Shown: piece after piece, positions 44,501 through 59,500 of the stretch
How positions within the stretch are numbered: the first letter of the stretch is position 1
Layout: every line of letters starts with the position of its first letter
Source of the DNA: Macrocystis pyrifera
Lineage: Eukaryota > Sar > Phaeophyceae > Laminariales > Laminariaceae
Assembly (NCBI GenBank): GCA_031763025.1
Contig: JASSKH010000017.1
Location: forward strand, 3,840,941-3,904,940
Direction of reading: 5' to 3'
Length of the DNA stretch: 64,000 nt
Notes under the pieces: model-generated
What the model was told of the DNA's origin: nothing
Database searches by the model: none
The model's input: the letters and a program-made list of their open reading frames with translations, nothing else
Translations under genes and position numbers: made by a program

Positions 44501-47500
44501 GCAAGCAGCTTGGCCGCCTACAGCTGCATCTAGATGCCGTTCGTCGAAGGCGAGACGCCTCTTCTAGGCGTTGTGCGAAGAGCTGTCTATTGGTTGCAGT
44601 TTGCGAAGAAAGAAAGAAGAAAGGTTGTTTGGCTGTTTGGCTGTTCGGCTGTTTCAAAGAAGAAGGGCTGTTTGCGAAGAGCTGTCTACCAGTCGGTCTG
44701 TCTGCCAAGAGCTAGCAAGTGACAACGACCTCAAAAATCGTAATTATAGTTGTATTTATATATATTTCGCCGGGCTTGCACGCGATATTCCGACTTTTCC
44801 CTGCCAAGATACACTGGATAAAACGTCCTTAGCACCCAAATCTTTGGGATGTCTCTATACAGTAGAAGAACGGTGCTCCGTCTCGAAAGGAATGCGTGGT
44901 AAATGATCAAAGGACTATGTAAGGCAAGCAAAAAATTAGTATGCCCCCCCCCCCCCCCGCTGCCTTGGTCGGTGAAAACCCGACATGGTCCGTCCCGGCA
45001 TTGTAGGGATGCGAGGGTCTATGGTCATACGACTACGGTCATGCATGAGATCGAGTACATCTCTCCTATCGAGTACACACCCCCCTCCCCCCCCCCCCCC
45101 ACCCCCCCCCCCCCCCCCCCCTCCACGACTACGGCCATGCATGATGTCGAGTCTCCCCCCCCCCCCCCCCCCCCCCCCCCGCGTCCAAAAAGATGACGGA
45201 ATGTGCGAGAAGTGCTGTGATGCTGGACGGGGAAATATCGAAGTATGTTGAAATTTTGCAAGGAGTTGCGCTGGGATGTACGTTGTCACCTAACTTATTC
45301 CAAAGATATATATTAACGACCTGATAGTAGCAGTCGAGGGAGCAAGGCAGGGAGTCACGGTAGGGGAAGATACGGTGTCGGGATTGATATTTGCGGATGA
45401 CTTCGTGGGGATGTCAGAAACACCCGAAGGATTGCAGAAACAAATAGAGAAGGCGCTAGAATACACCAGGAAATGGAGGGTGACGGCGAACGTCAAGAAA
45501 TGCGCAGTAGTTGTTTGTAGCGAAGATACGGCAAACCCTGTAAATTTCAGTTGGAAGTGTGTGGGGAGAAGATGAATTGCCGGTCGTAGACCAGTATACA
45601 TACCTTGGCGTAGAGATCTCAAAAGACTGCTCTTGGGATACACATATAGCAAAAGTAATAGGAAAGGGTAAGGCACAAGTAGGCAATGGGGGTCAAAAGC
45701 CTTATTTTATTCAACAAAGATGGATGCGATCCTAACAGACTCGCACCGTGACACTAGGATTAAGAGATTTATCCTAATGATTGTGTACGGGAAGGGAACG
45801 CGAAACTCGTAAAACAGTTGGAAACAATACAAATGACAGCAGCTAAAAAAAGCCTAAGATGCTCAAGTACGACTAGTAATACAGTATTAAGAGCAGAACT
45901 GGGAAACAAGACAAATAGAGACGTGAGAAAGTTGAACTGGCAATATAAAGTAAGGAACATGCCAAAAAGAGGTTGCCAGCCATAGTTGATAGAGCTGTAT
46001 GGGAGAAAGTAACAAAAGGGCGAGCTGGAATAAGGTGGGATGGGGTAGTTGAGAAAGTATGGAAGGATATAGGGGGAAACCCAGAAGAGATGATGTCCGC
46101 CGGGAAGTTTGGGAGGTACAAGGCAGAAGTAGAAGAAAGGATAGAAAGAAGGGAAAGACCAGCGCTAAGAAACAAGGTGGAATCGGAAAAACACTTAGAG
46201 ATATACGGGGGATTGAGGGAAGGAATAGGATTGAAAACGTATTTGCATGGCCCAATAGACTTCGCGAATACGCTGAAACTGCGCTTTCGTGTAGGGGACC
46301 TGGACCTGCCAGAAAGAAGAAAGAGGTATACCAGTAGCCGGGAGGAGGAGGAAGTAGATGCACAGATGTGCCCGTGTGGCAAAGTAATAGAGAGTGGAAC
46401 TCACATAGTAGGAGAATGTGAAATATACAAGGAGGAACGGGATGTGTTAGAAGAGATGAGGGGAATAGACGACTGTGACATGGAGGAGTTTGATACAATG
46501 AATAGCAGCGAGAAAACGATCGCTATCCTGGGAGATAGATGGTGGCCACAGGCGGCCATACAGGAAGGGGATAAGATTAGCAATTTTTTTCTATGTAATA
46601 TATGGAAACAACGTAGTGAGCGCCCAATTGTTGGAGGTGTCTCTATTAGGAGCAGGAACGGTGCTTCGTCTGGAAAGGGATGCGTGGTCAATGGTCAAAT
46701 GACTAAGGCAAGGAACAAATGAGTACCCCTCCCCCCCCCCCCCCTGCGCGTCCCTGCCCGCCCACACACTCCCCTTGTCATACCTCGTCCTTCTACCTTG
46801 GAACGCTTTTCGTACCCTCTCTTTACATATTTTTTATTTTGACGTTATACCACCGTTCAGCCCTACCGCGGCTGTGGTGCAGTCGAGCAGCAGCGGCCCC
46901 GGTGGCGATCTGGCGCGGCTGGAGGGTGCGGTGCGACTCGTAGTGCCGTACTCTGGGGCCGGGGTGGCGGCCGGGGTTGCGACCCAGGGAGGCGTTTACG
47001 ACGCCTGGTTTTCGCGCGGGAGGGACCCGAGCGCTTCTATACGCGGCGGCGAGGTGATTGATTGGTTGGTTGGTGTGGTTGATTGAGTGATTGATTGATT
47101 GATTGGTTGATAATAGTGATTTATTCAGTGATCGATTGGTTTGGTTATTTGATTTGATAGATAATCAAACCGACCACCGGTCCGCCGACGAAACAACCGA
47201 CTGATCTATCGACCACCCGACGAGACCGATTGACCTATCGTCGATCGACTAACCGACCGACTGACCAACCAACCGATGAATCGACCGACCGATGGGCTGA
47301 CTTAACCTATCAACGGACGGACCAGCGGACCCACCTACCCCCCCCCCCCCCCCCCCCCCCCAACTGTCCCATGGCCCGACCGTCTGACCTATCAACCGAC
47401 CGACCAACTGACCTGCCAACCGACGGACCGCCTGATCTATCAACCGACCGACCGACTGACCCATCCACTGACCGGCCGACATATTAACCAACTGACTGAC

Positions 47501-56500: not shown

Positions 56501-59500
56501 TAGAGACACCTCCAACAGTTGGGCGCTCATTACGTCGTTTCCGTATATTACATAGAAACTTTTTGCTGATCTTGTCCCCTTCCTGTTTGGCCGCCTGTGG
56601 CCACCATCTATCTCCTAGGATAGCGATCGTTTTCTCGCTGCTATCTAGTGTATCAAACTCCTCCATGTCACATTCGTATGTTTCTCTCATCACTTCCAAT
56701 ACATCTCGTTCCACCTTGTACATTTCACATTCTCCGACTATGTGAATTCTACTCTCTATTGCTGTGCCACACGGGCACATCTGTGCATCTACTTCGTCCT
56801 CCCAGCTACTGGTGCACCTCTTCTTTCTGGCAGATCCAGGTCCCCTACACGAAATCGCAGTTTCAGCGTCTTCGCGAAGTCCATTGGGCCGTCCGAATAC
56901 GTTTTCATTCCTATCCCTTCGCTGAATCCCCCGTATATCTCTGATCTATTTTCCGATTTCACCTTGTTTCTTAGCGAAAGCCTTTCCCGTCTTTCTATGC
57001 CTTCATCTACTTTAATCTTGTCTCTCCCAAACTTCTCTGCGGCCACCATCATTCCTTGGTTTTCTCCTATGTCCTTCCATAGTTTCTCAACTACTCTATC
57101 CCAGCTTATTCCAGCTCCCCCTTTTGTTACTTTCTCCCAATACAGCTGTATCAACTATGGCTGGCAACCTCTGTTTTGGCATGTTCCTTACTTTATGTTA
57201 CCGTTTCAATTTTCTCGTGTCTCTCATCTGTCTCGAGGGGGGGAGAGTGTACTCGATATCATGCGTGGCCGTAGTCGTACGGCCATAGACGTACTTATTT
57301 GTTGCTTGCCTTTGTGCACTTTGACCATTGACGGTGCGTCTCTTTCGAGACGGTGCAGGGACGGGATAAGGAGGCGGCAGGCTTATGGGTGCTCGTTAAC
57401 AGCGCTGCTCGGACTGCTTTCAGCTGTGTCTTTGTTTGTTGTGCGTCGTGTATTGTGTTGTGGGTTTCGCGCCTTTGTCTTGTGTCTCTTTTTCTGTTTC
57501 TGTTTTATGTTGTGTGAGGGCAGCGAGCGCTGTCGTTGTGCTGTCCCCGCGGCGTGACGGGCTGTCAAATCGTTTGGGCCTAAAAATGCGTCTGCTTTGT
57601 TTCTTATATATGCATGTGTTCGTTGCTGTTGCTCTTTGGCCCGTCCCTCGCCTATAGCGCCAACACCCAATGCACTGTCGAATTATTGTGTCGAACTCCA
57701 TGTGAACCTGTGCGGCTATTGTTTCCCACCGCCCGCCTTCTCCTATCGCCACCATTACCACCAACACCAACACCAACACCACCAACACTACTACTACCAA
57801 CTCCACCACCACTACCGCCACCATCACCGCTAGCACTACCACCACCACCGCCCTTAACGCCGATGTTACCCCGCCACCCCCCCCCCCTCCCCCCCCCCAC
57901 GTACGCACGCTCGCGTGCTCAACCTTACGAATGGCGTCGATCAATCTCGACGTTATCGAAACGCTTGCGACGATGCCCGTCCTGAAAAAAAAAAGTCGCT
58001 CTGCAAGCTCTCCGCGACGGTGCTCCAGCGGGTCGCCCGGGGCTCCGGCCCGTGGACCGAGCTTACCCTCGACGGCCTCAACAAGCTCATGCTGCTCGTC
58101 GAAGAACGCCTCTTTCCGGGGGACGAGCTAGCCGCGGCAATGACGACCGCGACGACAGGCAGCAGCGCCAGCGGTAAAGTCGGGGGAGACGGTAATGGCG
58201 GTACTGGTGGTATGGGCGGTGGCGGTAGTGGCGGCGGCGCTAGGAACGCAGGGAGCGACGCGGCGGGAAAGTCTCCGGCGTCGGAGGCGGAGGGCGGGTG
58301 GGGGGAGGACGGGACGGCGGCCGGGTCTCTGAGCCACCTCGTGGAGTGCATGCTGGAGGTGAGCGAGGGAGGTGGAGATGGAGGCGGCGATAACGGTGGT
58401 GACGGCTGGGTCGCGTACGTAGCCGCAAGCTCCCTCGCCGCACTGTGCCGTACGGTATCTGGCACGGTACGATATAAAAATCAATCAGACTCACAAAACA
58501 TCTGGGCGAACTTGCGCTAAAAAAAAGGATACAATATAACCCTATAAAAGTACCAGGTATCTTTTCAGTAAAGCTTGCGCACAACTCGCACAACAAAACT
58601 CGCGCAACTCCGCGGAAACACGCCTCGCTCCACTGCCCCTCCCTCCCCCTGCCCCGGCCCATTCTATTCCTCCACCCCTTCCAACCAACCCCACCCCACC
58701 CCCACCCCACACACTCGCTTCGCGCTACCTCATCCTATCCTCGGCCTCTTTTTATACACCAGATCGTGTGCGGCTTGCGCGGCATGCTCTCCTCCGAACC
58801 CCTCCCACCCGGCCACCGCGCCCCTGTGGCGGCTGTCGCGGCGGCGGCGACGGCGGCGCGGGGGGACGTCGGGCTTCGAGCGCGCGCGATCACCGCCATG
58901 TGGCCCGCGCTGAGGGCGCTGGGTCGGGTGCCGTGCCTGCGGGACGTCGGGACGGACCTTTCGAGGGTCGTGTACCACGAGGTCTTCCTCTCTTTGCAGT
59001 TTGTTTTTTTTTTTTTTTTTTTGCGTTGCCAGGTTGATTTTGCTTGTGATCGGCTTGTGTGTGTTTTTTGTGCGGGTGGGGCTAGGCCGCGTGGCCTCGT
59101 CGGTCCGTGACATGCATGCGTGTTTACCATCGATGCGGTAGCACATCGAATTATGTTAATGCGTTGCCCCCCGCCTCACGCCCCCCCCCCCCCCCCCCCC
59201 CCTCCCTCTCACCTCCCCTCCGGTGACATGCTATACGATTCGTACAAAAACTAACCTCCGCCCCGCCCCCCCCCCCCCGGCGCCTTCCCCTCTCTTCCCC
59301 CACGCCTCCTCCACTTAACTCCCCTCCCCCTCCCCTCTCCCCCCCCCCTCCCTCTTCCCCCCCCCTCCACCCCCCGCTCCCTCAATCGGCCAATTTTTCT
59401 CCAGACACTCCTGGCGCTGCCCGAGGTGACCCCCGCGGCGGGCAAGGCGGCGACGCTGGAGGCTTTCCTGAGTCTCCGGAAGGCGTTGTCGGTGTGCGAC

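Follow-up and report, generated by a model that had tools for sequence, protein, structure and literature searches.

The genome of the kelp Macrocystis pyrifera carries a pair of retroelements whose copies are mostly bordered by runs of C on both sides. We analyzed a window of 64,000 nucleotides (GenBank assembly GCA_031763025.1, contig JASSKH010000017.1, positions 3,840,941 to 3,904,940 of the forward strand), along with copies of the same elements fetched from the rest of the genome. The evidence points to an apurinic/apyrimidinic (AP)-type long interspersed nuclear element (LINE) and a non-autonomous partner with the same 3′ end, resembling a short interspersed nuclear element (SINE), that retrotranspose into kelp C-runs by target-primed reverse transcription, a reading to which we give a probability of roughly 85%. 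A preliminary description of the window, made from its letters alone, had proposed that LINE and SINE-like copies end in GAGTAC(A) followed by C-runs, and had offered two models, a C tail made at retroposition or insertion targeted to existing C tracts. Our data favor the two models jointly and not either one alone.

At the 3′ end, both elements pass from GAGTAC(G/A) or a near variant into C-runs, as was seen in the window and throughout the genome. Using BLAST and alignment, we located five LINE 3′ copies and nine SINE-like copies in the window, and counted a copy as C-tailed when a 12-mer with at least 10 Cs started no more than 10 nt from its 3′ end. Eleven of the 14 copies passed this test, against 4.4% in a regional control, which bears out the proposed ending; exact GAGTAC is the terminus of seven of the 14 and close variants occur in the other seven. 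In the LINE, the 3′ end in the window reads CAAATGAGTACCCCT and is followed by C14 (46731-46744). A genome query with the LINE tail returned 1,511 first-look candidates, of which 40 were scored, and from the 41 match rows we fetched the 39 best-scoring copies, excluding the one in the window itself and a second piece, 37 nt long, on scaffold C196 (individual fetched insertions, LINE or SINE, carry L-numbers below). In all 39, GAGTAC or a close variant leads into Cs, and GTACGC stands at the end of 23 of the 37 LINE copies kept for the 5′ analysis. So as to avoid selecting the best copies, we also counted the exact 22-mer of the LINE end, which occurs 3,856 times genome-wide (1,936 + 1,920) and is followed by one free base and CCCCC in 2,974 cases (1,479 + 1,495; 77%). 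Among the first 100 places listed, CCCC starts within 7 nt past the end in 20 of 20 sampled LINE ends, and those of the 20 that fail the strict pattern of one base plus CCCCC have interrupted or short runs. These three counts contradict the alternative that most loci end without a C tract. The fetched SINE copies behave likewise: all 20 have a 3′ run of five or more Cs, and 17 of them a run of six or more. The same goes for older SINE copies (at least 4 in 19/19, at least 6 in 17/19).

A C-run, read on the sense strand, also stands in front of most copies. Defined as six or more Cs within the last 25 nt upstream of the breakpoint, it was found in 48 of the 54 distinct insertions (32/36 LINE and 16/18 SINE) among those fetched; 52 of the 54 have at least CCC there, and a G-run of six or more was present in none. 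Among 62,427 background 25-mers from the LINE loci, away from the element, 2.7% hold a C-run of this length and 1.2% a G-run. Insertions are thus concentrated in one sequence, as expected of a target-specific LINE, with a weaker concentration in older SINEs (8/16). In the window, at least 8 Cs lie within the 12 nt preceding the 5′ breakpoint in 9 of the 14 copies (P = 1.6e-7 against the regional background). The set of 54 leaves out L024 and L031, whose 5′ ends lie beyond the data, as well as L037 (a duplicate of L034) and L050 and L051 (duplicates of L049); counts out of 57 given below include these three duplicates. Automatic 5′ breakpoints proved wrong, and were re-read, in L027 (a 5′ inversion), L047 (an internal deletion), L029 (an internal insertion) and nine long SINE copies. 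The three copies L049, L050 and L051, on scaffold C220, represent one SINE insertion in triplicate, with flanks at least 98.6% identical, and are recent segmental duplicates on one scaffold.

Target-site duplications bear on both models. We looked for matching sequence directly after the C-run on both sides of the element, and 14 of the 54 insertions had a duplication that scored 5 or higher; when left and right flanks were re-paired at random 300 times, 2.6 insertions did so on average and never more than 6. The search for such duplications, which the preliminary description had recommended, yielded exact ones of 10-23 bp in 10 copies, nine of which open with C3-C11, for example C8-TAACACTAACT (L018), C9-TGGCTGAGGCCGAC (L021) and C11-GAACAAG (L036), and one, in L098, with CTCCC. 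In some of them a few further bases, common to target and element, add to the length, and those of L098 and L102 were first spotted by eye. In these duplications the C-run precedes the unique portion of the target and is not part of the inserted DNA; it must therefore have belonged to the target, as the targeting model holds. The C tail model finds its support in copies where a 3′ run of C13 or more follows a target with only C3-C5: L042 (CCC in the target, C16 in the tail), L039 (CCCC, then C23 with more) and L102 (C5, then C13). Since these tails are longer than the target runs, Cs were also gained on the 3′ side, at insertion or later.

The explanation that fares best against this double origin is that the RNA brings no Cs at all, and that the flanking Cs all come from the duplication of a C-run target, with slippage afterwards. 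L018, which has exactly C8 on both sides (GTACG and then C8), needs no extra C, and C-run lengths do shift, as they differ between L034 and L037, which are one duplicated insertion. We nevertheless consider this unlikely, given that L042, L039 and L102 combine short targets with long tails and that the 3′ run is the longer one in 7 of the 11 LINE copies with duplications (8 when the interrupted tail of L039 is counted). A second explanation has C-runs arising and spreading independently, through slippage or as the pyrimidine tracts of splice acceptors, with the elements landing in any open or C-rich chromatin. It accommodates the fact that most C-runs border neither family and that several window runs stand just before AG; however, it would be favored by C- and G-runs occurring symmetrically at the junctions, and this symmetry was not seen, as the 5′ junctions carry C on the sense strand and G in 0/54 over a C-run background of 2.7%, which makes it quite improbable. 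Even less probable is that Cs are only added at retroposition, the C-runs on the 5′ side being either tails that previous copies left or products of chance: 12 of 57 insertions do occupy an earlier copy's tail, but the other 45 do not, yet 48 of the 54 distinct insertions have a 5′ C-run, and the exact duplications, by placing that run outside the inserted DNA, already largely refute this idea. Finally, an artefact of assembling long homopolymers, which runs of up to 111 nt in a long-read assembly might suggest and which may have made exact lengths wrong, is hardly credible when the same pattern appears at short tails and targets (C3-C9), thousands of places agree, and the duplications include sequence other than C.

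Several observations weigh against targeted, C-tailed insertion and should be considered. With the automatic breakpoints, the 5′ C-run counts fall to 30/37 LINE and 9/20 SINE copies. Of the 16 older SINE copies whose 5′ flank could be used, only 8 carry six or more Cs in a row there, 12 carry three or more, and 1 has a G-run of at least 6. L011 shows no C-run at its 5′ end. No duplication was found at score 5 in 40 of the 54 insertions, and the target is inferred from duplications rather than from empty alleles. As to tail length, the 5′ run is the longer one in L014 and L035, the two runs are equal in L018, and in L039 the run adjoining the duplication is C3 against C4 (its whole interrupted tail being longer); C-runs change in length after insertion and long homopolymers are hard to assemble, so the extra tail length may stem from gain at insertion or from later growth. 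In the window itself, the copies at 55432-55519 and 57291-57357 have no C tail.

The protein domains of the LINE are consistent with target-primed reverse transcription. Copy L031 matches Exo_endo_phos_2 (6.2e-07; 29.7 bits, cut-off 27.4) and the reverse transcriptase (RT) family RVT_1 (1.3e-14) in two frames, and copy L024 matches RVT_1 (1.2e-11). With an RT domain, an AP-like endonuclease, variable 5′ truncation, a single 3′ end and duplicated target sites, the element has the features of an AP-type LINE. Among solved structures, the RT comes nearest to an 832-residue RNA-directed DNA polymerase chain and L1 ORF2 (2e-6 to 6e-6), and R2 follows L1 ORF2 at 0.0036. Downstream of the RT we noticed by eye a CX1CX8HX4C motif; no restriction-like motif was seen by eye after it, nor was there a Pfam match in that part. 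An assignment to the R2/CRE/HERO type was considered and rejected, because the AP endonuclease domain precedes the RT. LINE copies are 5′-truncated at many points, the shortest measuring about 167 bp and the longest over 5,500 bp; the two longest have about 5.5 kb in common, with broken frames, and L027 is a 5′ inversion of the L1 type. In these longest copies (L092+L031 and L093+L024) we also observed a repeated 5′ region with self-matching pieces, similar to promoter monomers.

The SINE-like element, whose longest genomic copies measure 516-534 bp as cut here, shares the 3′ end of the LINE, as a SINE does with its partner. The common stretch is a 37-nt local match with a score of 42, whereas the maximum in 2,000 shuffles was 28. 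This match, together with the like targets and like C-run ends, supports the earlier suggestion that the LINE mobilizes the shorter element. No RNA polymerase III-type head (tRNA, 5S or 7SL) was found in it by ARAGORN (0 of 5 loci) or Rfam (3 loci, searched at E up to 0.5 without a match), and for this reason we call it SINE-like. A predicted hairpin common to both 3′ ends (GUCnnUGGUC-loop-GACUAnGGC) is not claimed here, although all four differences between LINE and SINE fall at its unpaired positions, as neither tail folds better than shuffled sequences and changes within each family include almost no compensatory pairs. Relatives of the elements were not found among the viral contigs, genome contigs and phages searched beyond the kelp genome.

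On this basis, we propose that the LINE endonuclease would nick the G strand of a C-run and that the freed ...GGG 3′ end would pair with the Cs that end the element RNA, which the RT would then copy, and on which it may slip. L1 follows the mirror-image scheme, in which T primers pair with poly-A. Priming of a G-strand nick on C-ended RNA would explain the strand bias, the duplications that open with Cs, the tails and the nesting. The extra Cs may originate in the RNA, in RT slippage or in later expansion. As each insertion would leave a C-run on both sides, the family would multiply its own targets, and the nested LINE-C-SINE-C-LINE arrays of the window would be the result. We are evenly divided as to whether, beyond this, the pair creates landing sites for itself, with each insertion adding C-runs or making them longer, has contributed to the poly-C load of the genome and, through the C-run that it leaves, keeps splice-acceptor C tracts usable after inserting into introns.

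Nesting of this kind was frequent. Of 57 insertions, 12 had landed in the C tail that a previous copy left, and 14 are themselves followed, immediately past the 3′ C-run, by a further copy; 24 of 57 show at least one of these arrangements and so abut another copy across a C-run. Repeats make up 57.6% of the M. pyrifera genome in its published account (PMC10498591), and C-runs of at least 16 occur 73,336 times (36,527 + 36,809). A forward count of GAGTAC no more than 2 nt upstream of C16 gave 5,035 matches, and the reversed pattern, as a control, gave 40; the end motif thus directly precedes about 14% or more of the forward-strand C-runs, motif variants uncounted, a figure that assumes one match per site, as among the forward matches listed (the reverse count, 11,272, includes sites more than once). 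Of four arbitrary 2-kb stretches, three also contained a run of 12 or more Cs or Gs. The preliminary description had the elements account for the poly-C richness of the locus, which our data do not support in that form, as most window C-runs touch no recognized copy. Its own caveat, that C tracts might be equally common away from the elements, turned out to be partly true: 19 of the 28 window runs of at least 12, and 33 of the 50 flanking the fetched LINE loci, border neither family by the rule applied, which overlooked at least two such runs in the window, 50608-50622 and 53958-54005, both of them tails of annotated copies. The two families are one source and user of kelp C-runs, not their sole cause.

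Intronic pyrimidine tracts may form a natural reservoir of targets. In the window, the C-runs at 50417-50449, 55207-55238 and 55977-55997 lie 0, 6 and 19 nt, respectively, before AG, at apparent 3′ splice sites of a plus-strand gene, for which no Pfam match was found. A G111 tract at 41480-41590 adjoins neither family; its neighboring sequence may be part of a different C-tailed repeat.

The copies in the window illustrate how the elements nest, and the coordinates given in the preliminary description were correct to within a few bases with a single exception. The span it gave, 44860..57362, does hold copies, although a further LINE 3′ fragment lies outside it, on the minus strand at 6860..6995; this is a 5′-truncated piece of about 136 bp with a 5′ flank of CCCCCC and a 3′ run of C12-G-C5. 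The first array, on the plus strand, begins with an older LINE 3′ fragment (44808..44941; 77% identical to the copy ending at 46728), followed by a C15 tract (44944..44958) that is both its tail and the 5′ border of a 5′-truncated SINE-like copy (44959..45077). After the interrupted C tract of the latter comes a SINE-like 3′ fragment with C tracts on either side (45124..45151), and then a C26 tract (45155..45180) that borders a 5′-truncated LINE (45181..46728). This LINE has stops in all three frames and retains the end of the RT, the CX1CX8HX4C motif and the GAGTAC 3′ end; its C tail occupies 46726..46744. Further along the plus strand are a SINE-like 3′ fragment followed by C9 (49975..50012), another with C tracts on either side (50555..50583), bordered at 5′ by C34 (50521..50554), and the longest SINE copy of the window, of 382 bp (53003..53384), which follows C30-G-C9 (52962..53001) and runs into C20. 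It is this last copy that provides the exception, since it does exist near 53269, as described, but starts at 53003, just after C30-G-C9, the point from which nine other genomic copies align.

Beyond it, a minus-strand SINE-like copy (54022..54082) is flanked by G109 (54083-54191) and G48 (53958-54005), which are C-runs on the sense strand, and a plus-strand copy within C-rich DNA is followed by C10 (54987..55073). The remaining elements are on the minus strand and comprise a SINE-like copy with a C-rich 5′ flank (55432..55519), a 5′-truncated LINE (56425..57233) that is 87% identical to 45909-46719 and sits behind the C7 of a SINE-like 3′ fragment (57243..57290), and a LINE 3′ fragment (57291..57357). 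Three of these did not pass the tail test: the copy at 55432-55519, the fragment at 57243-57290, where the run is no longer than C7, and the LINE 3′ fragment at 57291-57357. The earlier view that the elements end in a C-run holds for most copies, while the first of these three ends in GAGTACACCGCTACC and the last joins the SINE fragment directly, with no intervening C-run. A 19-bp scrap of the SINE core, lacking the 3′ end, was also seen in C-rich DNA at 55858-55876. Elsewhere in the window, an open frame at 25619-26515 matches a UbiA prenyltransferase (2.6e-53).

Among known systems, human L1 and Alu resemble the kelp pair in having an AP-type endonuclease, target-primed reverse transcription and a homopolymer-tailed RNA that meets a complementary primer, and further in their variable duplications, 5′ truncation and 5′ inversion, the latter represented in kelp by L027. 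The human elements use poly-A and TTTT/AA where the kelp pair uses a C tail and a C-run target, and Alu shares only the tail with L1, whereas the short kelp element shares 3′ sequence with its LINE. To our knowledge, LINE tails are poly-A or short repeats, and our literature search found no report of a C-tailed LINE or of a poly-C target, although a prior mention is possible. In the brown alga Ectocarpus, abundant RTE-X LINEs accompany the non-autonomous RTEX-N1_Ec32, of about 600 bp, which, like the short kelp element, matches the LINE 3′ end and has a 5′ part of obscure origin, as described there (PMC12477816). Unlike for the kelp pair, neither a C tail nor a C-run target is mentioned in what the main text of that report says of them. 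Among solved structures, the kelp RT matched mainly L1 and R2. Repetitive targets, as in kelp, are used by target-specific AP-type LINEs of the Tx1/R1 clades and by microsatellite LINEs such as Togen, at (TG)n, and some HERO elements (PMC4640811); in the sections of that source on them, the microsatellite LINEs belong to groups with a restriction-like endonuclease, unlike the AP-type kelp LINE, and no mononucleotide C target or C tail is named. Nested clusters of copies also occur in the Zepp LINEs of the green alga Coccomyxa/Chlorella, which are described as forming one cluster per chromosome (PMC3446292), whereas the scored kelp copies are spread over many scaffolds.

A C-tailed pair that targets C-runs provides a natural test of whether pairing between the RNA tail and the DNA primer steers the choice of target. 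The pair also offers a concrete, if partial, cause for the poly-C load of the kelp genome and, if the proposed scheme is true, it shows how an element could exploit intronic pyrimidine tracts with little harm.

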